Part shown: one piece after another, positions 2,877-22,900 of the stretch
Layout of the letters: each line of letters begins with the position of its first letter
Position numbering within the stretch: position 1 is the stretch's first letter
Assembly: GCA_029564595.1 (NCBI GenBank)
Contig: JAKQPS010000174.1
Span: 1-24,104 of the forward strand
From: a bacterium
Lineage (GTDB): Bacteria > UBP15 > UBA6099
Reading direction: 5' to 3'
Length of the DNA: 24,104 bases
Position numbers and translations under genes: made by a program
Notes under the pieces: model-generated
Database searches by the model: none
The model's input: only the letters and a program-made list of their open reading frames with translations
Told to the model about the DNA's origin: nothing

Positions 2877-3608
2877 ATGTCACGATGGATAAAGATTGCA
2901 AACGACAGAGGCCGCTGGGCGCGTGTGCGGATGGAATCCCCAGCGCGGGAGTCCAGCGCGGCGCTTATGTGTCCCGACGGCGGACACGCGACGTCCGCCG
3001 CTTTTATAAAGGGAACTCTGGAGACCGGGTACGGCGCTCTTCTTTCCCGGTGCGGTGATGACGCCGCGCTCGCGGAGGCGCTCATCAGCAGCGATCCGGA
3101 AATTGATTTCGGTGCGGTCGGGAGAAAAACGGGCGCCACCGACCGCATCTTTATGTCACCGGACGGCGATGTGCTCTATGCCGTCAATTTTCAGGAGGTG
3201 ATTTTCTCTACGGACGGCCTGGAGGCAGGACGCCGCGAGCCGGTGGATGTTCAAGCCAACATCGACCCGGAATTGCCCCCCGTGTGGTCGGGGCGTCTCA
3301 CCCCACGCGCCGAGGCGGCGCGCCGTTTCGCGTTTACGCGCAATTATCGTTTGAGGCACGTGGACGGACTCACATTCGATTTTCTGTTCGACCTGGCACG
3401 ATCCCTCGAAGATGCGGACGCTATGGCGACTGTCGGCTCGGGCCCAAGAGGAACCGGCCCGCTGTACCTCGAACGGAACGGCATCCCTTACTTCGGACTC
3501 CTTGAGGGCAGGACGAGGGCGGACACGTATCTTATCATCCTGCATCTCACAAACATGGAACTGAAGCGCCCGGTGTTTGCCGAACGGGAGGAGGTGATGG
3601 ACGCATGA
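2877..3608 (+). CDS. unrecognised 243-aa protein, translationally coupled to the ligase-AAA+ gene
   Basis: The ATG at 2877 follows AAGGAG with 6 bases of spacing. Its stop (3606-3608) overlaps the next start in an ATGA arrangement, which usually means coupled translation and often a shared complex. The N-terminus is basic and aromatic (MSRWIKIANDRGRWARVRM). The middle has strands around DRIFMSPDGDVLYAVNF. The C-terminal part has a helix (FDFLFDLARSLEDAD) followed by a Pro/Gly turn and strands (PLYLERNGIPYFGLLEG). The helix, turn, P-[FY]-L, N-x-G and Leu-rich strand order loosely parallels the C-terminal part of the preceding protein, so the two may share a diverged domain. No signal peptide, membrane segment or catalytic signature is visible. 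The function is unknown. Confidence 0.65.
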   Translation: MSRWIKIANDRGRWARVRMESPARESSAALMCPDGGHATSAAFIKGTLETGYGALLSRCGDDAALAEALISSDPEIDFGAVGRKTGATDRIFMSPDGDVLYAVNFQEVIFSTDGLEAGRREPVDVQANIDPELPPVWSGRLTPRAEAARRFAFTRNYRLRHVDGLTFDFLFDLARSLEDADAMATVGSGPRGTGPLYLERNGIPYFGLLEGRTRADTYLIILHLTNMELKRPVFAEREEVMDA

Positions 3609-6600
3609 ATATCGTGGATGAATCCCGGTTCCGGCCATTCGGCTGCGGCCGCGCCGCTCCCATTGGGTCCATTGCGGATGCCGCGCTCGACGCGCGTCTT
3701 TCCGCATACAAGCGAAACGTCGCCGGACAATACCAGAGCGTTCCGCCGGATGAGATTCACAGAAAAGTTCCGCCCGGCGTCCATATCGTTTCTCCTAAAA
3801 TCGACGGCGAGCAGTGGTTCGTTTATTCGGACGGCGGCGGAAGCACGATGCTGCTTTCGCCGACGGGAAGAGCGATAACGGGCATACCACTGACAGATGA
3901 GGCGGCGCGGATTATCGGCGGGCGGCGCATTCTCGTCGCCGGTGAGCTTTTTGCGAACGGAAAACCCGGCAGGCCCCGCGTTCATGATGTGGTCGCCGCG
4001 CTTGGAGGCGGAACGGACGCTGATGTCGAACGCTTGAAATTCGCACCGTTCGATCTGCTCCAGAATGGAAATGAAGACGCCTGTCGGCTGCCATTCCAGG
4101 GGCGCGTTGAGCTACTGCGCGGGCTTTTCAGCGGTTCCGTCTGTCTGCGCCCCGTTGATTTCAGGCGCGCGGACGGCGCGGATGCCGTTGCGGCCCTGTT
4201 CGATGAATGGGTCACGCGCGGCGGCGCGGAGGGAATCGTTGTCCGGTGTGCAGATGGCCGTATCCTGAAAATCAAACCGGAAATCACCATTGACGCCGCC
4301 ATCGTCGGATTCAGTGAAACCGGCTGCGGCATCGGGCGGCTGCTTCTCGCGCTTATGCGCCCGGACGGCAAATTCCAACTCATCGGCTCCGTCGGCACGG
4401 GATTTACCGATGAGGAACGCGCCGCTTTTCATCGTGCTCTTTCAGGTGATCCGGTTCCGGCGGCATACCGGAAGGCGACGCCTGAAGGGGCGTTATACCG
4501 TTTTGTACGCCCTCGGATTGTGGTCGAGGTGAAATGCAACGATCTTCTCACGCACCGCTCCGACGGCTCGGCCATCCGCCGCATGGCTTTGAATTATTCT
4601 GACGAAAAAGGCTGGACGCCGATCCGGAATGTTCCGTCCGTTTCCATGATCAACGCCGTGTTCCTGAGAATTCGAGAGGATAAAACCGTCGAGCCGGTTG
4701 CCATCCGGTTTTCACAGGTCACTGATATCGCGCCTGTTGAGGACACGGGTACCGATACTGTAGCGGGACCGATGCCGGCGCCCCTCATCGTGCGAAGGGA
4801 GGTTTATTCAAAAACAACCGGTGACAGAAGACTCATCCGTAAACTCGTCGTGTGGAAAACAAACCGCGAAACCGCCGATCCGCTCTGGCCGCAATATATC
4901 GCATTTTTCACCGACTTCGCGCCGGGGAGGAAGGAGCCGCTCAAGACGGAACTTCGTGTCGCATCCTCGCTTGAAACGATTCAACCTCACGTTGACGAAT
5001 GGCTCGCCGCGAATATAAAATGCGGCTGGGAACTCGTCTCGGACGCTATTGTGCAACCGGTTTCCAAAGTGGATGTGAAAAATGCCAGACTGGCAAATTT
5101 TCCGGTGGACACGATTGAAAACGATTCCGCGGCAAGTCCGTCCGAAACAGCCGAATTCGCATCGCCTGAGATTTTGGGTGATCAAATTGAAAAAGACCGG
5201 GGCGGGCTGCCTGGCGAAATAAAATTGGATGCCAGCGGCACAAAACAGAAATGGGCAATCGGCGTGGCGTTCCCGCACAGTTCATCCGCGAACTTCGCCG
5301 TCGCCCTACGCCGGGCGAAAACGCTCGCGCTGTTCGGTAATCTTGAATCCGAAACCGACGACAAGGGGCGGCAGGCGCGGTTCACCCTCACCATCGATTC
5401 GGCGATTGTCGAAAACGCAGTAAAAATTGAGAATCTTGTTCGAGTCGTTTCCAAGTGGCGATGCACGGAGCTTTCAATCAACGGCGAGCCTGTATCGCTT
5501 TTTGAATTCGATTCTTTTCTCGAGGAAATTTCCAACCTGCGCCGCTGCCTGCGCCGACACGGCGGCAGGCAGGCGCATTCAGGCGGTCTTATGTGCGTAA
5601 CGGATTCACCGCTTGGCTGCCGTCGCCTTCGCATCGAACCGAATCAGAAATTCCTGAAATTCCTCAATCACAGTGACATGCCGTGGTTCGCTGTCGGCGC
5701 TTTCGACGGCAAAACCGTGCGAATAGACAAACAGGCGCTCCGCGCACAAGTGAATAATACGAAAAATGAGCGGTTGGAGCTTTGCCCGCTGTTCGACAGA
5801 GACGTGGTTATCAGGCACATCGAGAAATTGCCCGATGCGCTCGATCCGTCGAAAGACAAACGCTGGGTCATCGTTTATTCCCGCGACACGGGCAAGCCTG
5901 TCTGGGCGCTGCCAAGAAAACACTCTTTTTTGCCTCATGATCTCATGTTCGCGCCAAGGGAAAAACCTGAACACAACATCGTAAGTCCCATCCTCTTGGG
6001 GGAAAATGCTAAAAAAGACGCGCCGCCCCGGCGCAGAATCCCTTCCGTCCGGTTTTCCGATGTGCGCGGCCAGAACGCCGCCGTCGAGGCGGTGCGTGAC
6101 TGCGTGGAACTTCCACTTCGACACGCCGCCCTGTTCGAGCGCGTTGGCGTCAGGGGCGGCGGCGGAATACTACTTTATGGACCGCCCGGCAACGGTAAAA
6201 CGCTGCTCGCGAAAGCCGTCGCCGGGGAGACCTCCGCGCATATCGAAATCGTCTCCGGCCCGGAAATACTCTCAAAATGGGCGGGGGAATCGGAACGCGC
6301 CCTCCGCGCCGTCTTCGAGAGGGCAAGACAGCATGCGCCGTCCGTCATCCTGTTCGATGAAATCGACGCCATCGCCCCCGCGCGAGACGCCGCCGATGCC
6401 GTGCATCAAAAAATACTCGTCTCGCAACTCCTCGTCCTTCTCGACGGCCTCGAAGCGCGTGGCCGAGTCTTCGTCATCGCCACCACTAACCGCCCCAACG
6501 ACATTGACCCCGCCCTCAAACGGCCGGGGCGTCTCGACCGGCTTGTGTATGTCGGCCCGCCCGACGCTGCCGGACGCACCGCGATATTTGAAAGATACAT

Positions 6601-6916
6601 TTTGACAATGCGCGTCAGCGCCGCCATCCGTCCCGCCGAACTCGCCGCCGCCACACCCGGCTTCTCCGGCGCCCAGATCGAATACGCCTGCCGCGAAGCC
6701 GGTCTGCTCTGCATCAAAGAAGCCCTCCGCACTGGCGCGCCTTTCGAATCCGTCGAAATCCTCCCTCTCCATTTCAACGAAGCCATAAGCGCCATAAGAC
6801 AACCGCCAGAAACGCAATTCCAGGGAACTACCGCAGCCCTTGTCTCGTTTCTGAACTGCACACTCTCAGGAAAAACACATGCTGATCTTCAAAAGCGTCG
6901 CTGTGACATTCTCTAA
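3605..6916 (+). CDS. ATP-dependent DNA-ligase-like domain fused to a Cdc48/PAN-class AAA+ ATPase
   Basis: This is an 1103-aa fusion. Residues about 60-225 carry the nucleotidyltransferase motifs of ATP-dependent DNA ligases: motif I KIDG with Lys65 as the expected AMP-acceptor, motif III GELF (Glu114), FAPFDLL (149-152), motif IV EGIVVR (Glu209) and motif V KIK (222-224). An OB-fold-like part follows, with GTGFTDEER and a motif-VI-like LRIREDK. The DNA-binding N-terminal domain of large ligases is missing, and the Arg usual two residues after KxDG is Gln70. Residues about 395-475 (Trp/Lys-rich) and 545-790 are unrecognised. Residues about 812-1060 form one AAA+ module: Walker A GPPGNGKT (859-866), pore-loop-like KWAGESE, Walker B ILFDEIDA (Asp918, Glu919), sensor Asn962 and Arg fingers in RPGRLDR (973-979). 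The start overlaps the previous stop (ATGA). It may adenylate or seal DNA ends while the AAA+ ring remodels protein on DNA (inference). Confidence 0.85.
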   Translation: MNIVDESRFRPFGCGRAAPIGSIADAALDARLSAYKRNVAGQYQSVPPDEIHRKVPPGVHIVSPKIDGEQWFVYSDGGGSTMLLSPTGRAITGIPLTDEAARIIGGRRILVAGELFANGKPGRPRVHDVVAALGGGTDADVERLKFAPFDLLQNGNEDACRLPFQGRVELLRGLFSGSVCLRPVDFRRADGADAVAALFDEWVTRGGAEGIVVRCADGRILKIKPEITIDAAIVGFSETGCGIGRLLLALMRPDGKFQLIGSVGTGFTDEERAAFHRALSGDPVPAAYRKATPEGALYRFVRPRIVVEVKCNDLLTHRSDGSAIRRMALNYSDEKGWTPIRNVPSVSMINAVFLRIREDKTVEPVAIRFSQVTDIAPVEDTGTDTVAGPMPAPLIVRREVYSKTTGDRRLIRKLVVWKTNRETADPLWPQYIAFFTDFAPGRKEPLKTELRVASSLETIQPHVDEWLAANIKCGWELVSDAIVQPVSKVDVKNARLANFPVDTIENDSAASPSETAEFASPEILGDQIEKDRGGLPGEIKLDASGTKQKWAIGVAFPHSSSANFAVALRRAKTLALFGNLESETDDKGRQARFTLTIDSAIVENAVKIENLVRVVSKWRCTELSINGEPVSLFEFDSFLEEISNLRRCLRRHGGRQAHSGGLMCVTDSPLGCRRLRIEPNQKFLKFLNHSDMPWFAVGAFDGKTVRIDKQALRAQVNNTKNERLELCPLFDRDVVIRHIEKLPDALDPSKDKRWVIVYSRDTGKPVWALPRKHSFLPHDLMFAPREKPEHNIVSPILLGENAKKDAPPRRRIPSVRFSDVRGQNAAVEAVRDCVELPLRHAALFERVGVRGGGGILLYGPPGNGKTLLAKAVAGETSAHIEIVSGPEILSKWAGESERALRAVFERARQHAPSVILFDEIDAIAPARDAADAVHQKILVSQLLVLLDGLEARGRVFVIATTNRPNDIDPALKRPGRLDRLVYVGPPDAAGRTAIFERYILTMRVSAAIRPAELAAATPGFSGAQIEYACREAGLLCIKEALRTGAPFESVEILPLHFNEAISAIRQPPETQFQGTTAALVSFLNCTLSGKTHADLQKRRCDIL

Positions 6917-6925
6917 TACTCAAGA

Positions 6926-7714
6926 TCAAGTTCGTCTCGTGGAGGATGTTTCCCGTTGTGACATCTGTTTGTCAAGGCAGCCGGTTTTTACGCCGACCCT
7001 CGACAGCGCATCTTTGAAATCCATATCTTCTCTCGCGGTGACAATCGCCTCATCCCATGATCTGAAATAGTCGTAAACCGGCGCCCACAGACCGCTGTCG
7101 TCTTTTTTAACAACGCTGACGGAAATATCCTTTCCCATCTCCATTCGTTCCTAGAGAGCCGCGATCACCTTTTCTCTGCTCAATCGCCGCATCGTCCGGT
7201 ATTCATCGTAATCTGTTCCTGCCGTGCGCACCACCTTCTCCCACGAACCGAACCGCGAAACCCCGGCGCTGAACAACCGTTCGTTCACGCGACAGACCAC
7301 CGTTGAAACAAGAGCGCCCCCGTCCGCTTTTGTCCGCTGTATCTCTCCGATCACATCATCCTCTGTCCATTTCAGGTTCACACATACCTCCATGTAATCG
7401 ATCCCCGCCGCGATCACCGCATCTCGCCATGTGCCGAAATGCCGATCCCCGGCATAAAGGAGCCGCCTGTCATTCTCCATGATGCCGGCAGCGTCGAGGC
7501 GCTCTCCCGCTTTGTACATTTCACGGATTCTGTCTCTCACGATTTCCGGTGTCCACCTGCAGCGCCTCCGGATTTTGCCGTAATCCTTTATTTCCACGGC
7601 TGCGAGCGCCGCCTCCCAACCGCAGTAATAATGATTAGCGGCCCACACCAGTCTCCCATTAATGCCGCTGATTTCCTTCTCCCGGATCTCGCGCCCTTCA
7701 TGCAAAGTAAATAG
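6926..7714 (-). pseudogene. broken tandem-repeat gene of HNH_repeat type, with in-frame TAG and lost 5' end
   Basis: One minus-strand frame encodes four copies of a unit of about 60 aa with the ending F-G-[ST]-W-x2-A-x2-A-G, as in homing-endonuclease-associated repeats (HNH_repeat). Signatures are CGWEAALAAVEI, FGTWRDAVIAAGID, FGSWEKVVRTAGTD and FRSWDEAIVTA. The fourth unit begins LSREKVIAAL, meets TAG at 7153-7151 and continues in the same frame (ERMEMGKDIS...) to TGA at 6928-6926. It aligns without gaps to the second unit, with the stop at unit position 11. Upstream of about 7714 the repeat similarity ends and no Shine-Dalgarno-supported start exists, so the 5' part is lost. An internal restart at ATG 7144 or 7138 is possible but would give only a repeat fragment. 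The frame is convergent with the ligase-AAA+ gene, 9 bases apart. The nuclease domain itself is not present. Confidence 0.7.
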
Positions 7715-7747
7715 TTCTTTCCTGCACCATGAGTTGTTTAAGAGGTG

Positions 7748-7790
7748 TTGACAAATGTGGTCGAATGGTGATAAATTCGGAGAAAACCAC
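7748..7790 (+). promoter_or_regulatory. candidate promoter of the giant gene, overlapping a nested inverted repeat
   Basis: TTGACA (7748-7753, a full -35 match) is followed after 16 bases by GATAAA (7770-7775, 4 of 6). Downstream, GTGGT-CGAAT (7757-7766) is mirrored by ATTCG (7775-7779) and ACCAC (7786-7790), giving two nested 5-bp arms that span the -10 box. This could be an operator. The giant gene starts at 7932, so the leader would be about 150 bases. A second, weaker TTGACT lies at 7809-7814. Confidence 0.4.
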
Positions 7791-7931
7791 TTCATATTAT
7801 GTTCTATGTTGACTGTTTCGAGTGAGTTGTTTGTGAATAAAACATAAAGCAGACAACTGGGAGCAAACAGGAAGATACCTTTATAAGCGACACGGAATAA
7901 TGTTGTTTTGAATACAAATATGGAGTTACCC

Positions 7932-10900
7932 ATGAATAGAGAACGAAACAACATACCAAAGAAAATGCTTCCGTTGCTGGCAATTGTATTTTACTCGGCA
8001 GCTTTTTTACTCACTGTGAAATTGCTCGCGGCGCACGTCCCGACGGTCGAGATAACGGAACCGGCACCTGGAGAAGTCGTATCCGGTGTTATTCCCGTGT
8101 CCGTGAATTACGGCGTCGACCGCGGCAACGTCCACACGCTCATTCTGCTGGCGGGCAGTCCTCTTGCGGAAGTAGAGCGCGTCGCGGTTCACGATCAGGA
8201 GGGATCGCACACATTTTTCCTTGACACGACAAATTATCCCGACGGACCGCTTCAGATAAAGGTTGAGGCGTGTTCATCATCCCCCCACCAGGGAGATCAT
8301 TGCTCGGACGATTCGGTTTCGGTTGTGGCCGATAATATTGAAGATGACACGGAAGCGCCTGAAATAGAGATCACATCGCCCGGGGCGGGAGAATTGGTTT
8401 CGGCCGCGCCGGTTGTCGTGTCTGCGGCGCTTTCGGACAATGTCGCGGTATCCCCCGAATCGGTAATCGTTAAACTCGACACACAGACCGTGACCCCTCA
8501 GTGCGATGTGACGGCTGTTTCCGTCATTTGCGCCCTATCACCTTCGGATGGACGGCACAACATCACGATAGACTGCCGGGACACAAGCGGCAATCCGGCG
8601 ACTCAGGCGGGTGTGTCGTTCACGCTCGATACAATCGCGCCTGTGGTCTCGGTAACAAGTCACACGGACGGCCAGACAGTCACAGCGCCGACGGCTGACC
8701 TCGCAGGAACGGCGTCCGACGCGACGAGCGGCGTTGTATCGGTTGAAATTAACGGCGAGGCGGCGGTTCTGAACGGGAACTCTTGGAGTCTTGAAAACTT
8801 CGCTCTCGACGAGGGTGCGAATGTAATAACGATAACCGCCGGGGACGCCGCCGGGCATTCGAAGGTTATCACAATTACAATCAACTACAATCCACCTGAC
8901 ACTCAGAAACCAGTGATCACAATCGGAGAGCCCGCCACCGGAGCGCTTCTTGACGCGCCGCCGGTTATCATCAGCGCGGAGCTTGAGGACAACGTGGCCG
9001 TTGCGACCGCGAGCGTGGTCGTAAAGCTGGACGGAGAGAACATCACAGGCGACTGCGCCGTGACCTCGTTCTCTGTTGACTGCGCCCCGTCCCCGGAAGA
9101 CGGCGCGCATACCGCCACAATAAACTGCAAAGACATAAACAACAACACGGCGGTTCAAAAGAGCGTTACATTCACTGTTGACACAACCACTCCGACGGCG
9201 GCGGTAACAAGCCACTCGGACGGTCAAATAGTCGTCACGCCCGCAATCAATCTGTCGGGAACCGCGTCCGACGCCACGAGCGGCGTCGTGTCCGTAAAAG
9301 CAAACGGAGAAGACGCTTCTCTTAACGGCAACGCATGGTCCCTGGCGGGATTTTCACTCGAAGAGGGTCCGAACGCCGTCGTCATCGAGGCCGAAGACGC
9401 CGCCGGACATGCGGCGCTCGTTGCGATCACGATAAATTACGTCGTTCCTGAATGTTTCAACGACGCCGGATGCGACGACTCCGACGCGTACACAGAGGAT
9501 GTCTGCACAGCGCCCGGAACCGCAGACGCCGCATGCTCCCACAATCATATCGAATGCCAGAGTTCAGCCGACTGCGATGACTCGGACGCCTATACCGCCG
9601 ATGCCTGCACCGCCGCCGGTACGATCCGGTCCGCCTGCGTTCATTCCCCCATTGCCTGTCTTTCAAACGAAGACTGCGATGATTCACAACAGCTTACGCT
9701 CGACACGTGCAATTCGCCCGGGACCGCCGGATCGTCCTGCTCACACGATCCGCTCGAATGCGCGTCCGACACCGACTGCGAAGATGAAAACGCCCTTACC
9801 ATTGACGATTGCCTCAATCCCGGAACGATGCAGTCCGAATGCTCGCACGTCGTTATCGCCTGCAACACGAATGACGACTGCTCGGACGGAAATAATTACA
9901 CGGAAGACGTCTGTGTTTCGGGCGGAACGCCGGGCGCGTCGTGTAACCATAATATCATTGAATGCCTGAGCGCGGCGGACTGCGATGACGGACGGGCGCT
10001 TACCCTCGACGCCTGTTCCGGCGCGGGGACTCCCCTGTCCGCCTGCGTGAATACTCCGATAGCGTGCAACACGGATACGGATTGCGATGATCGGAACGCT
10101 TACACGCTCGATACATGCGCCGGGGGCGGAACGATTGCCGCTTCATGCGCACACGCGGCGATCAGGTGCCTGACATACGCCGACTGCGACGACTCCGATC
10201 CTCTCACCACGGATTCATGCGTGAATCCCGGCGCGGCATCCTCGTCCTGCTCGAACGTGAAATGTCCCGTCGCGTGCGCCTCCGCGGCGGACTGCGACGA
10301 CGGTAATCCGCTGACTAACGACGTATGCTCGAATCCCGGCGACTGCGCGGCGGCATGTTCCCACGTCGCGTGCGCCGTCGCATGTACATCGGCCGCCGAA
10401 TGCGACGACGGGAATCCGGCCACGACCGACACCTGCGCGGCGCCCGGAACGTGCGGCGCGGCATGCTCTCACACACCGATTTCTGAACCAGCCGCGCTGA
10501 CGCTGGCGATTACCTCGCCCTCCGAAGGGCTTATCACGAACAATCCTTCGATAACAATTGCTGGAACAACTACTCCCGGAGCGACAGTGACGATAAACGG
10601 CTCGCCCGCCGCCGTCGGAGCGGACGGCGCTTTCTCGGACGGCGTCGCTATTAATAAAGGAATAAATACGATAAATACTGTAGCATCCCTCGGCATGCAA
10701 AGAATCGAAAAAACAATCACCGTCACTCTGGACACAAAAGCGCCGACGGTCATAAGTTCCGACCCCACCGACGGCGCTGAAATCGAAATCGCGCCTTCCC
10801 GCGTCGCCGTCCGAATCGAGGACAATCCAGGCGGCTCGGGGCTCAACACGACGGCCATCCGCCTTTTCCTCGACGGAGAGGAGATCGCCGGACAATACGT

Positions 10901-13900
10901 AACCACGACCCAAAGCATTGAAGCGGCTGGCATCGAAATACAATCAGGAAGACATATCCTTCATGTCTCCGCCTCCGACCTAGCGGGAAATACTCTCGAT
11001 CAGACAATCACCTTCGTTCTCGCCGGAAAAGGTCCGAAAGTGAAATTTCTCAAACTGCCGGGAACTTCGGGCGCGTCAGCATCATCCGTTGTCGGAACAT
11101 CGTCCACTGATACGGGCGGCTCTTCGTTTACAGACTCAACGTTCGCTCAATCTATCTCATCGACACCGGCAATGGAAAGCGGGGCGGTGACAACCACATC
11201 CCCGTCCGTGGCCGGAGGAACATCCGGCGCGGCGACAGCCCAGTCCGCGTCTTCCGGCTGGCTCGATGTAGGGCAAAAATACAACATCGATACGATCATC
11301 GAGCTTCTGAAGGAAAAGTATCCATCGAGCGACTGGAATCTCGATGGACGGTCGTCCCCCACCGGCGCGGCCGGCGGTCCGCGCGACGCCGAAAACGCCG
11401 CCTCTCCAATCGCGGACGCGAAAATCACCGTTTCATCATATCCGCCACCGACGGCGTTTTCCGTTGTGGGAGAACTCGAGGCTCAGATCGACGAGGGCGA
11501 CGCGCCGGTGGACGCGGATTCCATCCATGTAGAAGTTGACGGAATCGCCGTGCCGCATGAATATGCTCCGGCGTCGAATAAAGTTAAATCAAAGGTAAAG
11601 GGACTCAAAAAAGGCGCGCACAACACCAAAGTCACCGCGTCCGACACGGACGGCGCGACGGGCATGGCGATGAGCGCGTTCACCGTGAGCGCCATCGCCG
11701 ACACCCTGACGTTTGAAAATCTCACGATGCCCGGAACGGAAATCCGCGCCGGAGATAGATTCAGACTCCGCGTGGATTCCACTTATCAATACACGCCGTG
11801 GGTGGTTCTTTATAATCCGGTCATACCGGTGTCTCCTGGAACCGTCGGGTCATGCAACGCGCAGTTTTTCGTCGGCGACGGATACAGTCCGGCCCTCATC
11901 GGAGGCACGGCGTACAGCTACGAGGGCGAAGGAATATTTTACACGAGCGCCGACCGCGAGGGCCGCGCGGCAAGCCGCGTTTACGCCGCGACGCCCGTTG
12001 ACGCCTTTGATGAATTGGGCAACGGAAACTGCCTTTTCTCAAGCAACTCCATGACGGTCGTGAACGGTCCCGTCGCCCCGCATCTTGATTCCGCGACTTT
12101 CAAAAAGGCAACCGATCCGGCGGCGAAGGTCATCAGCCTAGGCGATGAATATACAATAACCGCGTCCGGCTCGCCGGGTGTCGTGAACGCCGATTACTGG
12201 CTCATCGATCCAGAGCAGATAGAGGGAAGCGGCGTGCTCGGCGCGGCGGTTGATTCCGGTGTCATGGTCGAGACGGCGCTCGGATCAGGGCAATACGCTC
12301 TGATGGTTCCCCGGACTCTGAACAACGTGACGCCGCCGGGGAAAAGTCCGGCCCGGTTCCTTCTCGCGCTCGTGAGACCCCGCGCATGGAACGCGGACAT
12401 TCCGCCCGCAGTGAGCGACATTCTTTACATCGGCCCCGCCCCCGCGCCGGTGTTCAACGTCGTCGAAGTCTCAAACTCCGATCATCCGGGTGAGCCGCTC
12501 CGGCACGGCCAGAGGTACAGAATACGCATTCAGGGCGACGTAGATTACGCGCACAGGGATCATCTGAAAGTCGTCCTTATCAACTCCGACCGCTTCTATC
12601 CCGGATGGAAGCCTTATTACGGAACAGGTCTTTTCATTCCCGGCACGGAGTCCGGGTATAACACCGGCCTCAACTGGATGGACCCGAACATTTACGGCCC
12701 CGGCGTCTACGAGGCGGAAGGTTTCATGCCGCCGCTCTCGGATTCCGATGGACAAACCGTCTCAAACGTCCGCGCCGTCGTCACCGCCGCCTCTTACTTC
12801 GATTACGCCGTCTCATCCCCCGTTCCAGCCGAGCAGGCGCAGCCGCCGGTCTCGGTTGAAAACATCCGGTTCATCAATAAGGATCATCCCGACTGGACGA
12901 CCGTTGCGGCGAGTGAAACCGTGCGGGTCGAGGCGGAAGCCGCGCCGGGACTGAGCCTCGATTGCCTCGTATCCGCCGCGAGTTTCACGGGCGGCGAAAA
13001 CACCGAGCCCGTGGTGTCGAAGGCTATGACCGAGGGGCCGTCGGGCAAATATTCATGCGAGGGCGCCGTCGCAACACGTCCCGACGTGAATGGCGCGCCA
13101 GCCGATTTTCTCATGGCGAAGACCATAAGTTCGGGTAGCTTCGCGGATATGGCGGACGATCTTCTCACGTTCCGGGACGCGGTCCGTGAAGTCCATTTCC
13201 GCAACCTCACGCGCCCCGGCGCGGCGGACATAGCGCCCGGAGAAAGATTCGAGATCACCGCCGCCGGACAGTCCGGGCTTTCCGACATTTATGGAAGCAT
13301 CCTCGACGCCGCGCTCTTCCACTCCGCGCAACAGGGTCCCTTCCAGCCGACGGACAGACTCATCGAAGACACGCCCGGCAACTACAGAATCGAAGCCGCG
13401 CTCGCAACCGTTCCCTATGGTGTGAAAGCGGTCCGCGCGGCAATCGGCGATCCGAACAGCCCCGTAAAGCCCGTAGTATCCACTGAAATTCTCGCGGTTG
13501 TTCATGCCGAGCCTCCCAAGCCGCCTGAGATAACCCACGTCAACAATGTCTTGGTATCGGGCGGCGAAGTAACGTCCGATTCGTTCTCGCCCGTCGTCAC
13601 GGGAACCGCCGAGCCGGACTCCACGGTGAAAATCTATGAATTCACGGAGGGTGCTGGAGTCGAAATATATCCCGTCCCTAACGGCCTGTCGCTCTCGGCA
13701 TCGTTCATACCGGGCAGTTTTCTTTATGATGATTTCGGCGATTCGACTTACTCGGAAAATCTATGGCATTTCAACACATCGGAAGGCGTTCGCGCGGAAA
13801 TTGTAAACGGCGTGCTCGAAGCGGAACCCTCCCCGACTGTTCCCGTATGGATGGAATCGAGAATTCCTGCGGTCGCCCAGGGCGACTTCTACGTGCAATT

Positions 13901-16900
13901 CAGCATCAAAACACCGCTTGCCCAAATGGGCTCCTCCGATTTCTTCCATTTCGGCGTTCCCGCAACGGCGGGAGGCCCGTCTCCATTTCAAATTTACTGG
14001 CAGGGCGGCGGACGGATTGAAATCCGATATCAAAGCGGCGTATCGACATACCATCAACACGTTCCGCCGACGCCGGATACATGGTACATCATACGAATGG
14101 ATTACAACTCCAATGCGAATACCGTATCACTTTCCATCGACGGCGCGCAAATCGCGACAAGCGATCCGGTTGCCGGTTTCAATGATGAACAGGCAGGGTT
14201 CTTCCTGTCGTTTTTCATGAATGCGGGCGCCGGACATCGCGCTATATTGCTTGACGTTGTAGAAACATCTTTGATTCTTCCTTCCGGCTACAAAATCAGC
14301 GGCCCGGCGCTTGTAATGAACGGCGTCGCATACGACGGCTTCGGCACCGGCGACGGGATGCTTATGAGCCCCTGCAAGGAAGGCCCCACGCCTCTACCCG
14401 CGCTCGATCAATGCGTCACCGGCGGAAAGGACATACGTGCTTTTCTGGTAACGGCGACTGATGTAATGGTGGAAGGCGGAACAATTGTCCCCGAACTGAA
14501 AGTCACATTCTACACCGCCGGTGACCCGTCCGTGCCCGGCAATGACCAGTATGCGTTCATCAAACAGTTCTTCGACATGATCACCGGACAATTCATCGGC
14601 GGATACGGCATTGACGGCGAGGTCGTCGCCCTCCGCGCCCCAGCCGCCGGAGCGCCCAACGATTACGATGCCGTCGAGCCGCTCATCGCTCAGGAACAAC
14701 TCTGCCGCGAAGTCCCCGGCCAGCCGGGCAGTCTGCGCTGGGACGCCGCGCGGGGCAAATATCTCGCCTCTTACACTCCGCTCGCCCACAACGATGTCAA
14801 TTACACCGATTACGTGATATGGGGCCGCGCGGAGAACCAGGACGCGCCGAACCTGATCTCCGGCCCCGACGCCCCGGTATGGTGGGCGGATGGGACGGAC
14901 GACATTTCGGCGGCTACCATTCACGCGGATCAGGAGGGATGGGACGCGACCATATATGTCACGGAGGATTTCTTCGGCAATCTCCCGAACGGCATAACTC
15001 TCACCTCGAGGGCGGACGGCGCGATCAGGGCGAAAGGGGCCGGAAATGATTATGAATGGAACCAGCCCGCGCTCGACGCGCGGAACATCACCATCGCCCC
15101 CGTCGAGTCGTGTTCGAGAGGCATGTTCAAACTCATCGGCGAGACCGTCGCGGGCGAATCCGGCGCGTTTGCAACGCAGGTGATTTCGTTCGATGCGCCC
15201 GGCGACCACATCATCGCCGCAAGATCAACAAAGAACAACTTCACAACAAAATGGTCCGATCCCGTCGTTTACCATCTTTCAACAGGCACGGTTGATACAA
15301 GCCCGCCGGCTATTGTTATTATTTCCGCTGCCCCTGATGTCATATCACCATCCAATCCGACAAGCATCGGAGTAAAAGATGCGTTTCGATTTATTGCAAA
15401 TATTGCTGATCAAAGCCAGGTCGACTGGTGGTTTTCCGTTATGGATCAATCGCAAACCAACACCTTCTGGAGAACCAACGGATCAGCCTACGACATGGAT
15501 GTGGCATGGTATGGTAAAGATACAGAGGGCGCTGTCGTTCAGGATGGAATATACGCGGGCATTCTTACAGCAATTGACAACAGCCCGGCGGAGTATTCAT
15601 CTGAAAAGAAGATTTACTTCCGTGTTGATGACACATCGCCGTCTGTCTCCATAGAAAATCTAATTGACAACCAAATAGTATATGGTATTGTAACGGTCTA
15701 TATCACAGCAAATGATGGCTTGAATGGATCAGGCATTGAATCGATTGTCGCTGCTGTTGACTCCGATCAGATAAATATATATCAGGCAGGTCCTGGATAT
15801 GCAGCCGTATGGGACACCACTGCCGTGCCAAACGGCGTGCATACTATTTCCATAAGGGCAATAGACCGAGGCGGGAACACGGCGACACAAACGGCTGACA
15901 TTATCGTGGCTAATGACGTAACGCCTCCAATTATCGAGTTCCTCAATCCGTCTGAGGCCGGTTTTTTTACAAGTGATCCGGAGCTCATGATTACGGTCAG
16001 AGCGTTTGATGAGCCGGGCGGTTCCGGTTTGAAGAACGTGGAGTGGGCAGGCTCCGGATACCCCTTCTATGTGTCTTCGACAAGCAATCCTGAAGTATTC
16101 CTTCTGCGCCTTTTCGGTCCAGTCACCCAGAGTAGCGTTGTTCCCATAAGGATTAGAAGTAAAGATAATAATAACAATTCAAGAGAAATCGATTTCCACT
16201 GGATAGTCGATCTCGATGAACCGGAGATCACTCTGATTTCTCCCGCCACGATGGGCTATTTAAACAACTCAATGCCAACTATTGTTGCTGATATTAAAGA
16301 TATAGTGTCAGGAGTTCATTCCGATTCGTTGTCGGTACAATTAGATGGAGATTTCATCAATGGATTTCAGTTCAATGAAGCAACCGGGCGACTTGAAGCG
16401 ACGGTTTCCCTGCCTTTATCCGAAGGTCTTCATGAACTTGTTATAGAAGCATACGACATGGTCGGAAATAAATCGATAAAAGCAGTTCAACTCGGGATAG
16501 ATACACAGCCGCCGGTTGGGGACATGAACCCAATGGCGCGCCCAGGCAGTTTTGAGGGTATCGGCGAGTACACCACCGACTACACCGTCTATTTCACCTG
16601 GGACCCGATATATGACAACACGGGTGGAAGTGGAATCCTGACGTATCTGGCCGAAATCAGAGATGGAACACCAATAGACGAGGATGCCGGGACTGATGGA
16701 CAAGATACGGATGAAGCAACCACTGACGGATTGGTTGAATATTGTGTTGTGGCCGTTGACATGGCGCTTAATTACAGCGCTCCCCAGTGCGATAAGATTA
16801 CGATTGCTGTCGGCGTACCAACCATATCGAATGTTGCCGACTCGCCCGACCCGATTTCTCCGAAGAACGTTGTGTCTGGCAAAAACACGAACGATTACAC

Positions 16901-19900
16901 GACTATTACCGCCGATGTTGTTGGAACCGATCCTTCATATACATGGGTGGTTCAGATATTCAAAGACATGAACGACATGGTTGCCGAACTTCCGCTCACC
17001 GGGCCCGGAAGCGGCACAATTGTGAGCGCTGAATGGATGGGTAAAAGATACCCGCAGGACTCATATGTTGATGACGGACTCTATTACTACCGGATCATTG
17101 CAACTGCGGACGGTACGGGTGTCGCCTCGCTGCCTGGCGTCGGAACCATTACCGTTGACAACGCATATCCTGAACCGATGATTGTAGCGCCTACCGATAA
17201 CGCCAATATCAAAGATGATTATTATACGGTTTTCATAGAAGTCAAAGAGGATGTCGGCATTGAAGTTGTAGTAATTATGGTGGATGGAATTGTCAGAGGG
17301 GCGGCACAGTGGGCGTATGATAAATCGAATGGAATAAAAGTCTATACATACAACTGGAACGTGGCGGCGGAGGGGGCGGGCAACCATAATCTTGTTGCTC
17401 TTGTTGCCGACAAAGCCAAGAATACAAAAGCAGACGACGTAAATATCAAGTTCGGCCAGATACCAGCGCCGGAAGTTTCCATCATATCGCCACTGAATAA
17501 TGACGCTGTTAAAGGACAAGCGCCGGTTAATGTTCATTTTGAACTCAAGGAGGGAAAGGTCAAGAGACTCGAATTTTACACGTCTGCCGATGGTGCAAAC
17601 TACACTCTTGCGGGTAGTCATTCATATCCGAATAACAACAGGCCGAGCAGTGGAGGTTACCAATTTGTTCTCGACACTGCAAACCCAAGCAATGGGTATT
17701 TTGACGGTCTTTATTATCTGAAGGTGGTAGCGATCAAATCGTCTTTGTCGGCGGAATCGGCGCCGGTAAAAATTTTGATTGACAACACACCGCCAGTGAT
17801 TTCAGAGGTGTCACCTCAAAATGGCGGTGTGCTGACACCCATGACCGGCAAAGACAGCTTGCAGGTTCTTATAATTGCGAGACTCAGCGATGGGGGCGGG
17901 TCGGGTCTCCGAAATACCGCGAGTCTTTCAATCAACGGCGCCACAAGCGCTGTCCCGATAATCAACTTCTCAGGAAGCATGGCTATTTTCAACTCCCAGA
18001 GTCTTTCTTTAGGAAAATACCTGGTCACACTGATGGTTTCCGATATCGCGGGCAATACTACACAGTATAGCTGGGTTTTTTCCGTCGGAGTTAAACCCGA
18101 AATTGCCAGTCTATGTCCTGTCAGCGGACCGGCGGGAAGCCAAGTAACTCTTGCGGTGAAAGGATTTCCAGTTGACCCTGAAAATGTGAAGTTTTATATA
18201 AATTACCCCAATTATTCTTCCATACCCGCTAGCGTAACGAAATATGAAATGGAAATCGTTAGTTTCGCCAGCGACACCCTTGTTGTCAGACTGCCTCAAT
18301 CACTGCCGCCGAGCGATCCCAATGATCCCAACGGACTGCCATTTATCAATGCATATTTTCCAGGTGCGTATCCCAACATCCCATTTGTTACGAAAGGCAA
18401 ATATTTCAGAATTCTTGAACGTCCGTACGGAGAACGCATGTATGTGGCCAACACGGGCAGCAGAAACATTTCCGTTATTGATTTGGATTCTGGAGAAGAA
18501 GTGGCGACAATCGGACAGGATCAGGGGCTCATCACGGGTGACGGCAAATACGGGGGACTTACCGACGTTTTAATGATCCCTGACGGAAAGTACGTCTACG
18601 CCCTGAATGGCGGTGATGGGTTACCTGATGACAAGAGAAAGCTTAATGTCATCGACACAGTCTGCAACACTGTGATATCCACGATTGACGGCGTTTCCGG
18701 CTATGAATTGCTAATGTCGCCGGAGGGGGACAAACTTTATGCTGCCGACCTCAGCAGAGGCGTATTTATTCTTGATGCTCAACAGACAGCGTCACAACCG
18801 GTTTCCGCCGTTGTCGGTTTTAGTTCTTTTGTTCTTGGGATGAACACACGATTTGGAATGGATGGCGCCGATATTTATACAATCAAAGACGCGCATTACA
18901 GCATTGATGACGAAGCGCTCCTTACAGACCCTGACAATTGTGTCAGGAAAAGAATCCCTTCGTTGTTTTCCGGAGACATAACGGATGACGTGTTTTCTGG
19001 AGATCTGACCCCCGACGGCAAATACATTGTCGGCGGATGGGGAGATGATAAAGGCTTGAACTATTACATTCGGGTCTTCAGAACCGAAAGCGGTTCATTG
19101 ACAAATTCTTATCCGCTTGGGGCTAAAAAACCGGAGTTTTTAAGAATTCATCCAGACGGCAAGTACATTTATGTATTATCGAGTTCAAATCTCTTCATCA
19201 TAGATTTAAGGAAAATTATCAAGAATTCACCGGGCGATCCGATTGTGTCTAAAAACATTCCCGGTTCTCCAAGCAATATCACATTTTCCAATGACGGCGG
19301 CATCGCATATGTTATGCTGAAATCCTCAAACGTCAGACCGCAAGTATCAGGCGGTGATCTCGATTCGGTTCTGTTGATCGACCATGAATCGTCTATTAGA
19401 GATGGCGAAATAAGGATATTGCGGGAAATAACCGTTGGAGACAGGCCTGTAGATATTGCATTTGTCCCGCCCGCGGCGCCTCGCATTGACAGCATCAATA
19501 CGTCTCAGGGATATGCGGGTCAACAGGTTGTCGTAACGGGGATCAATTTCAGCGAAAACGCAGATCATAATATAGTCATGTTCGGATCGGCTCGAGGGCA
19601 GGTTTTTGCAGCGACTTCGACAACAGAACTGACGGTCAGAATACCCTCCGATGCGAAGACCGGTTATCTATATGTCGCAAGAGCTGGAATAGTATCCAAC
19701 AAGATACCATTCTCCGTTCTTCCACCTGTCATCGACGCAATGTATCCAGAGAACAATCTTCGTGCCGGACAGACGGTTCTGATAAGAGGGAACGGTTTCA
19801 GCGAAATCGCCAACGAAAACAATGTTTACTTTAATGACATCAAAGCTGAATTGACATCGGCGAGCTTCTCGACGTTGACAGTAATAGTTCCGTTCAAATC

Positions 19901-22900
19901 CATTTCCGGCAATCTTCATGTCGAGGTGGGCGGGAAACCGAGCAATTCTGTGCCATATGCGATAATCGCTCCTTCAATATCAATAACTTCACCAGCGAAC
20001 GGCGATGTTTTTGATATGGATGCTGACACGGATGGAAACACTCGAAACGGGATACAGATAAATGTTTCGGCCACTACCGATGTATCTGATGGAAAAACAG
20101 TATTGCTTCAGGTCGCTGACAAGGAACCCGTCAGCGCCAAAGTGATTTCCGGTGTGGTCACGTTTAATACCGTGACTCTCTATCCGCCCGACACAACCAT
20201 AAAGGTATATTATCTCGATCAGATGAACGGCGACTACGCCGAAGATTCGGTTTCCGTCACCGTATCGCTGCCGTACGAATCACCAAGCGATATTGTATAT
20301 ACAAAATCGGGTGAACCGGTGCCGACCCTCATAATGGGACAGCAGGTCATGCTACCCACAAAACAATTATCCATTTATGATGCGCAAACGAAACAATCCG
20401 TTCCCGTTCAAAATACGTCGAACGGCGACATGCCGTCATGGAGGGCCGACGGAGATAAGATTGTATTTGTGAGATCAGTTAATATATGGGATTCGAATGA
20501 CCCATTTTCGCCATGCATATTTTGTCCGGCCTACCTCTATGTCTCCGTGCTTGGAACAGGAACATCTTATCCGGTGCAAATCCAAAGCGATGGAGGCGCT
20601 GAAAATATTGAGGCGTTAAATCCATCATGGTCGCCGGATGGAGCAAGAATCGCATACTTTCACGACACGGCGTCTGGATTCCCTCACTCATCCAGTCTTT
20701 CCGTTATATCCATAGACGAGAACGGACTTGTTACAGACGGCCCCAGGCTCATTGCTGCAAACATCCGTCATATGGGCAATCCATCTGCGGTATGGTCTCC
20801 GAATGGCAAATATCTGATCTTTCCCGGATCGGTGGACCTCGGAGAAGGTTCTCTTGCGCTTGCCTCATTCGAAGAAGACGGCGGCGAAGTTCGAATCAAA
20901 ACAAAAACAACGGGAATAAAGGCGAATGCGGTGGATTGGATGCCTATGTCGGAGGATATTCTCGGAAACAGCGTGTTATTTCTGCATCTGACCAATTTGC
21001 CGACGGGCGTCTCTTTTCCGATTTATCTGCAAGAGGAACCGGATTTCATAGTTGGCGCCTCCGTCGGGCTGAGCGGTAAAGAACTCATATATACTGACTA
21101 TGCTGTGCCGAATAGGTATAGCTCGTATTTAGTCGATCTTGCGACTCTTAAACGCACTACCACAGGCGATGTCTTGCTAAACCCGGATTGGCGCAAACCA
21201 AGGCAGCCGATATACAACAGTACGCCACCACAAATAAAGAACCTATGGCCTGCCGACGGAGCTTTTGTCAATACAAAAGCCCCCAAGATCAGCGCAAATA
21301 TTCTCGATGACATGCCTCCTTATGTTTGCGCCGTTGAATCGATTGCGCTTACGGTTAACGGAATCGACGTTTCGAATAAGGCCGCTTATAATCCTACCAC
21401 AGGGGCATTTTCATACAACACTTCTATGGATTTCGAATTTGATTATCTCGAAACGGTCTCTTATTCGATTAGAGCAACTGATTGCGTTGGCAATAGCACG
21501 GATATCATATCCGGCGCGTTCACCATAAATGACCCGCCCGCTATCTCTCAGATTTCCCCTCCGGAAGGAGGAGCGGTCAGATCGCAGAGCGTTAAGATTT
21601 CAGCTTCTATCCGTGATACGCAGGGAATAAAACCGGATTCGATCAGATACGAAGTGTCGGGAATCGGGGAAATACCGGGGATATACAACCGCGAGAAAAA
21701 CACCGCTGAAATCCAGATTGCTCTTGGGGAGGGAACCAAACTAATAAAATTGAAGGCCGAGGATATATATGGCTATAAGGCGGAAAGTGTCTGGAGTTTT
21801 ATTGTTGACCGCACAAGCCCACAGATCAAAAGCAGTTCGCCTGCCGCTACGTTCAATTATTTGCCTTCTCTTCCATCCGAGATAACAATAACGCCTATCG
21901 ACAACGAAAGCGGTATCGATCCTTATTCTCCCAAGACAGCTTTATATCTAATTAAGAACGGGATCAACTTCAAGCTGCCGCTCGACGAACAGTCAAAGAT
22001 GAGTGGTATTCTCAATTACAAGTTGCAGGCCACGTCCGATCCCTATTTTGATGTGGAGACGGGTTACGTTCTGAGAGCGGACATATACGACCGCGCCGGA
22101 AACGGTGTATCTCACAATATGACAATAGTTTACGATGCCACAAAACCTCAGGTATACATGCAACGCCCGCTTAACGGCTCTCTCGTGAACGATCCTTTTA
22201 TCGAACTGGTTATAGAAGATTCCATAAGCAATGCGGATGAGATGGAATTCATGAAATTTCAATTACTCTCCGGCGGAACAGTCGCAAACTGCGTCCCGAG
22301 GAAGGTCAACAAAAACACGGTGTCATGCGATCCCAGGCTTCCCGACGGATCACAGATTCCCGACGGCCCCTATCGACTTCACATAATAGTCTCCGACCAG
22401 GCGGGTAATGTTTTAAATGACAACTCAATGACTTTTACACTTGATAGAAGCCTTTCGGATGACGATCTCGTAAATCCTGAAATATCAGAGTTCAATATTA
22501 CGCCAAGAATGTTAAATCTTTTCGATGATAACGGCGATAACGACACAGCGAATATAGGTTTCAATCTGGCGGTGCAGTCCGATGTGACGGTTTCCATCCA
22601 TGCCTTGGACTATTCAATGAAGCCAGTATATCCTCCGGTGAGGGTTATAACATCACTTTCCATGAGCCCGGCGACCAACAGCATCATCTGGGATGGAAAG
22701 GACAGCAACGGGAATATTGTTCCAGACGGAGCTTATTTATTCAGAGTTTCCGCCACTGACTCCGGCGGAACCGGCGGAACGTATTACCTTCAGGATCAGA
22801 GAGAGGGACCTTCCGTCGTCGGGATTGACGAGGAAAAGGAATTTTCGCCGCCTGAAAACAATGGCATAGATTTCAATTTCTCTTTTAATATTCCTTCTTA

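Follow-up and report, generated by a model that had tools for sequence, protein, structure and literature searches.

The described systems closest to the locus reported here are bacterial nonhomologous end joining (NHEJ) by Ku and LigD and the removal of Ku70/80 by VCP/p97 in eukaryotes. Ku forms a closed ring that threads onto broken DNA, and sealing of the ends traps it there. In eukaryotes, VCP/p97 removes Ku that is trapped on religated DNA (PMC5577460; van den Boom 2016, as cited in PMC8073936), and the open-access papers on bacterial NHEJ or Ku evolution that were searched for it show no bacterial route for Ku removal, a limited look that is no proof of absence. The window analyzed here, 24,104 nucleotides of a bacterial draft genome (GTDB lineage UBP15, UBA6099; assembly GCA_029564595.1, contig JAKQPS010000174.1, positions 1 to 24,104), codes for a fusion protein, G, in which a DNA ligase half and a Cdc48-class AAA+ ATPase share one reading frame, and for two small proteins, E and F, immediately upstream, the second of which has a predicted Ku-type fold. 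We put at roughly 0.45 the probability that E, F, and G make up an end-joining operon of a divergent, NHEJ-like kind, in which the ligase has acquired a p97-like motor, plausibly for stripping a Ku-like clamp.

G (1,103 amino acids [aa]; positions 3605 to 6916, + strand, as are all of the operon features below) is encoded by a single ATG-started open reading frame (ORF) and is one uninterrupted protein, organized as a ligase core, an OB fold, a ligase-family C-terminal domain, a linker, a domain designated MD, and an AAA+ module. The nucleotidyltransferase core (residues ∼45 to 235; positions 3737 to 4309) contains motifs I (KIDG, residues 65 to 68), III (GEL, 113 to 115), IIIa (FAPFDLL, 146 to 152), IV (EGIVV, 209 to 213), and V (KIKP, 222 to 225) and matches Pfam DNA_ligase_A_M (PF01068; E = 2e-5 at residues 49 to 218), 1.5 bits below the cutoff. 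The OB-fold part (residues ∼236 to 392; positions 4310 to 4780) contains motif VI (RIREDK, 355 to 360) and matches DNA_ligase_A_C (PF04679; E = 1.6e-12 at residues 242 to 360), above the cutoff, and the NCBIfam model NHEJ_ligase_lig spans much of both (E = 9e-17, residues 63 to 315). The AAA+ module with its lid (residues 812 to 1044; positions 6038 to 6736) matches Pfam AAA (E = 1e-40, 855 to 984), AAA_lid_3 (E = 1e-8, 1011 to 1042), and NCBIfam CDC48 (E = 1e-75, 812 to 1044), and Cdc48/p97 heads the PDB matches when the whole chain is searched. In addition to the lid it has the other features of a Cdc48/p97 AAA module: Walker A (residues 859 to 866; positions 6179 to 6202), an aromatic pore loop 1 (KWAGES, 891 to 896; 6275 to 6292), Walker B (914 to 921; 6344 to 6367), sensor 1 (ATTN, 959 to 962), and arginine fingers (973 to 979; 6521 to 6541). 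The first-pass annotation of this DNA, made from the nucleotide letters and ORFs, had claimed such a one-frame fusion, with the five core motifs, an OB-like part, and a complete AAA+ module, and had proposed the profile searches that now bear it out; it left residues 393 to 811 unresolved, a region that comprises the ligase C-terminal domain, the linker, and MD, and its coordinates omit the two upstream operon genes. Only one AAA is found in G, with neither a second ring (as in a D1/D2 pair) nor a double-psi N domain detected by Pfam or NCBIfam. The same searches find no LigD polymerase or phosphoesterase domain in the 1,103 aa, and the scores of the LigD equivalog models fall well short of the cutoffs.

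The ligase half belongs to an undescribed family of ∼480-aa proteins that usually end near residue 478. A pattern from its C-terminal domain (TDFAPGRKEPL, residues 436 to 446) was scanned across 84,980 species genomes and yielded 38 loci, the majority coding for a protein related to residues 1 to 478 of G (27 to 45% identity). Carriers are chiefly Myxococcota (31 of the 235 genomes of that phylum), with others in Bacteroidota, Verrucomicrobiota, and Acidobacteriota; among the seven genomes of the window's own phylum the source genome is the only one. The C-terminal domain itself (residues 393 to 478, VWKTN...TDFAPGRKEPL...KCGW; positions 4781 to 5038) is conserved in 24 homologues and matches no Pfam domain, and the stand-alone ligases end just after its KGW terminus or bear short tails. 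Residues K65, D67, G68, E114, E209, G210, K222, K224, R357, D359, and K360 are invariant in these 24 homologues, and NHEJ_ligase_lig is the top NCBIfam match of all 24 family members. A search of the PDB with the family profile (E = 1e-23) returns LIG1, archaeal ligases, and LigD, and the alignment of the profile to human LIG1 extends through the OB fold. By its motifs and its core and OB profiles, the ligase half is thus classed as an ATP-dependent DNA ligase, of which adenylation at K65 and strand sealing would be expected from the established family. Three of the stand-alone ligases (L143, L144, and L145) have Lys/Ala-rich C-terminal tails resembling histone H1, and the ligase gene of genome G463 contains an in-frame TGA (L075, positions 6909 to 6911; L133, 2506 to 2508), which may reflect a pseudogene, a sequencing error, or recoding.

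Among the ligase frames examined, one other runs past residue 478 into further domains. It is in a member of the Myxococcota, genome G607 (loci L140 and L146), and has the same order of ligase, C-terminal domain, linker, MD, and AAA, with E and F preceding the fused gene as in the window. The two proteins share 48% identity across residues 3 to 1063 of G, with 53% in the ligase, 52% in the C-terminal domain, 42% in MD, and 63% in the AAA module; the linker (residues 479 to 549; positions 5039 to 5251) is variable, with 35% identity across its 34 aligned residues (of 71). In the ligase tree the window and G607 sequences are sisters with support of 100/99, a pattern that would be explained by a fusion that arose once and was then transferred or inherited over a long period. 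The first-pass annotation, which had asked for a homologue with the same order, also held that ligases and AAA+ unfoldases are normally separate proteins; this is true of most relatives, whereas the G607 protein shows the two halves fused in an independent genome. The refutation that the annotation had foreseen, with the halves encoded separately in every homologue, is thereby contradicted.

E and F homologues are directly upstream of the ligase gene, on the same strand and separated by short gaps, at all loci that reach ∼1.5 kb or more upstream, with the exception of L123, in which E is undetected. In the window, E (203 aa; positions 2234 to 2845) is followed by F (243 aa; 2877 to 3608), the stop codon of which overlaps the G start (ATGA), and the E, F, and G starts are each preceded by a purine-rich Shine-Dalgarno-like stretch. 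Searches of Pfam, NCBIfam, PHROGs, PADLOC, and the PDB sequences place neither E nor F in a known family. They are probably related to each other, with an hhalign profile score of 28.0 against a column-permuted null of 14.5 ± 2.8 (none of 60 controls as high), a signal that suggests, though it does not show, a two-subunit clamp. The E family ends in a strongly conserved acidic stretch (DDDLDFEMF in relatives; columns 203 to 211 of alignment A2). Acidic tails of this kind are familiar from SSB, in which the tail binds partner proteins, and by analogy the E tail is a possible docking peptide. The Pfam Ku domain is absent from the host genome and from 37 of the 46 searched genomes that carry the operon ligase, and the operon is therefore no accessory of a standard Ku/LigD system. 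Paraliomyxa miuraensis (L080), a culturable species with the operon, is among the carriers in which Pfam Ku is present.

The AlphaFold model of F, built from a 23-row alignment (pLDDT 77, pTM 0.61), predicts a Ku-type beta-barrel. All 43 of its Foldseek matches in the PDB at E ≤ 1e-3 are Ku, with M. tuberculosis Ku at the top (E = 7.5e-6), followed by Ku70/80, and in VIA structural alignment the Z score is 12.8 with Ku80 and 12.6 with the M. tuberculosis protein (113 residues, 2.8 Å). The middle of the model (residues ∼41 to 100) is of low confidence (pLDDT 50 to 70). The procedure does not yield Ku by default, because an MD model treated identically gives no match at E ≤ 1e-3.

MD (residues 550 to 775; positions 5252 to 5929) is present in 16 of 386 bacterial genomes searched, where it occurs alone, with zinc ribbons, with a VRR-NUC-like nuclease region, or with the same type of AAA as in G (L015, G287, and G400). 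It has no Pfam match, and a known fold was sought and not found: the AlphaFold model reaches a pLDDT of 65, Foldseek returns nothing at E ≤ 1e-3, and VIA Z scores of 6 or lower are noise. With so modest a model and blank fold searches, the only site claimed for MD is a likely zinc site, indicated by four cysteines (C648, C664, C672, and C727) that are invariant in 16 sequences. Of the AAA module that follows, ATP-driven threading of substrate by the aromatic pore loop would be expected from the established family. Several other MD arrangements were observed. At L016 (positions 1 to 1671, − strand; G344), MD is in one frame with an apparent VRR-NUC-type nuclease region, read by eye, a further tie of MD to DNA-processing enzymes; at L045 (5741 to 8088, − strand; G261), a stand-alone MD gene immediately precedes one for a Ycf46-like AAA protein, so the pairing of MD with AAA also occurs between separate genes; and the MD proteins encoded at L018, L021, and L023 bear a zinc ribbon (CxxC...CxxC) at the N terminus.

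In the proposed pathway, F, probably with its relative E, would form a Ku-like clamp at broken DNA ends, the two perhaps binding the ends as a pair. The ligase half of G would then join the double-strand break by adenylation at K65, transfer of AMP to the 5′ phosphate, and sealing. In this version the ligase also bears MD and the AAA+ module, which is of a hexamer-forming Cdc48/p97 class, and the motor would probably extract the Ku-like ring, or some other partner caught there, from DNA that has been sealed; alternatively, it could remodel the complex before sealing. Sealing would in either case be coupled to protein remodeling, as the first-pass annotation had supposed. More tentatively still, the system may be an end-joining pathway with a two-gene Ku-like clamp and a ligase whose built-in p97-like segregase frees sealed DNA of that clamp, an independent, one-polypeptide counterpart of the eukaryotic ligase, Ku, and VCP.

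The likeness to bacterial Ku-LigD NHEJ is that a protein of predicted Ku-type fold is encoded with an ATP-dependent ligase whose top NCBIfam match is the LigD ligase domain. However, the operon ligase lacks polymerase and phosphoesterase domains and has its own C-terminal domain, there are two small partners rather than a single gene for a Ku homodimer, F is below Pfam Ku detection, and in two cases an AAA+ motor is fused to the ligase. The eukaryotic system is similar in that a Cdc48-class AAA+ protein, a ligase, and Ku or its counterpart belong to one system, and in the ring-freeing task proposed here; unlike p97, G has one AAA ring instead of two, is ligase-fused, has no known ubiquitin route, and carries MD where p97 has its substrate-binding N domain. 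Two types of undescribed protein each resemble part of G. The stand-alone ligases correspond to residues 1 to 478 and are encoded in the same operon but stop near residue 478 without MD or AAA, whereas the G287 and G400 proteins have MD followed by a Cdc48-class AAA but no ligase half, and have no E or F neighbors in the stretch examined.

Several observations weigh against the end-joining reading with a Ku-stripping motor. Its link between F and Ku depends on a predicted model of pTM 0.61; SPOC domains, which have this barrel too, reach a VIA Z score of 11.9 compared with 12.8 for Ku; Pfam Ku misses all 23 F members; and hhalign comparison of E and F with 22 Ku proteins stays at the level of permuted controls, so Ku was rejected as a sequence-level assignment for either. 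Most operon relatives have no fused motor, and MD was not found as a trans partner in the 26 genomes with unfused ligases that were searched, indicating that the motor is optional. Moreover, G287 and G400 have MD and AAA without Pfam Ku and, in the neighborhood examined, without E, F, or ligase, so the client of the motor need not be Ku, and it is for this reason that the full model is held at the probability given above. The main competitor accordingly keeps the end-joining operon but gives the AAA+ module another client: with MD as an adaptor for substrate, the module would rid the break, or the ligase itself, of some other protein, such as a toxic client or a blocked nucleoprotein. The varied company of MD, which is fused to a VRR-NUC-like region or zinc ribbons and found beside a Ycf46-like AAA gene, also favors it, but two distant genomes have both kept the fusion downstream of a gene for a Ku-like protein, and conservation is moderate to high in MD (42% identity) and AAA (63%). 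This fits a role within the pathway, and we regard this other-client explanation as rather doubtful. A defense or mobile-element system, whose Ku-like proteins, ligase, and AAA+ would target DNA that invades or has been excised (by circularizing an element or sequestering its ends, for instance), appears unlikely. It would account for the patchy occurrence (one of seven genomes in the window's phylum), a recombinase-like gene, D, beside both fused copies, and the resemblance of the AAA module to PADLOC IetA profiles. However, the similarity to IetA is of a general AAA kind and weaker than that to CDC48, no known defense gene is among the scanned window genes, viral contigs contain no relative, phages and plasmids yield ordinary ligases only, and the unfused operon sits amid unrelated chromosomal genes. 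Of the three settings that the first-pass annotation had offered, repair fits best because the conserved partner F has a predicted Ku-type fold, and mobile-element control and defense fit less well. A viral origin was also considered and rejected, as viral contigs hold no relatives and the one pattern match there (L039) falls by chance within a phage-like structural gene.

Two further alternatives concern the ligase half and the fusion itself. The first-pass annotation had read the Gln after KxDG, together with what it took for a weak motif VI, as leaving room for RNA ligation or adenylation of protein in place of DNA sealing. The Arg of KxDGxR is indeed missing across the family, but the residue at this position varies (Leu as in KIDGELWF, Gln, and others) and is a family trait, and motif VI is intact, with its R-x-x-DK residues invariant. 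As the family profile also spans the DNA ligase core and OB fold, this option is weakened, and with a partner of predicted Ku-like fold in the operon it is quite improbable. Joining of two genes by misassembly or misbinning might be suspected from a lone contig in a draft genome of 203 contigs, with the fusion in none of the other six genomes of the phylum; however, no stop codon breaks the frame across the linker, and the presence of the same fusion, 48% identical and in the same gene order, in a genome of another phylum excludes an assembly artifact to near certainty. It is possible that the contig was placed in the wrong genome bin, which would leave the fusion itself unaffected.

The ligase-AAA fusion is a new architecture among end-joining systems, and no description of it, or of such a bacterial Ku-like operon, was found in the open-access literature that was searched, a scope outside which most subscription journals fall. 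A sealing enzyme and a p97-class motor beside a Ku-like gene make the question of bacterial Ku removal directly testable. The widespread E-F-ligase operon is itself a candidate end-joining pathway, one that standard Ku/LigD surveys would miss given the many carriers without Pfam Ku.

Upstream of E is gene D (152 aa; positions 1705 to 2163, + strand), which codes for the core-binding (SAM-like) domain of tyrosine recombinases (phrog_1 integrase, E = 8e-10) without a catalytic domain. A D homologue accompanies the fused operon in G607 (L146, positions 689 to 1231; 26% identity, E = 2e-15), and the unfused loci examined have no match to D beyond chance. Downstream of G, a leftward gene (positions 7151 to 7954, − strand) codes for a 267-aa protein with HNH_repeat units associated with homing endonucleases (PF18780, E = 2e-6) and overlaps the start of a 5,370-aa ORF (7908 to 24020, + strand). 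The latter probably encodes a giant surface protein that combines Ig-like and Cys-rich (CDDSDAYT) repeats with a stretch resembling a propeller, and within this ORF the GC content falls from ∼58% to 47% near position 15000.

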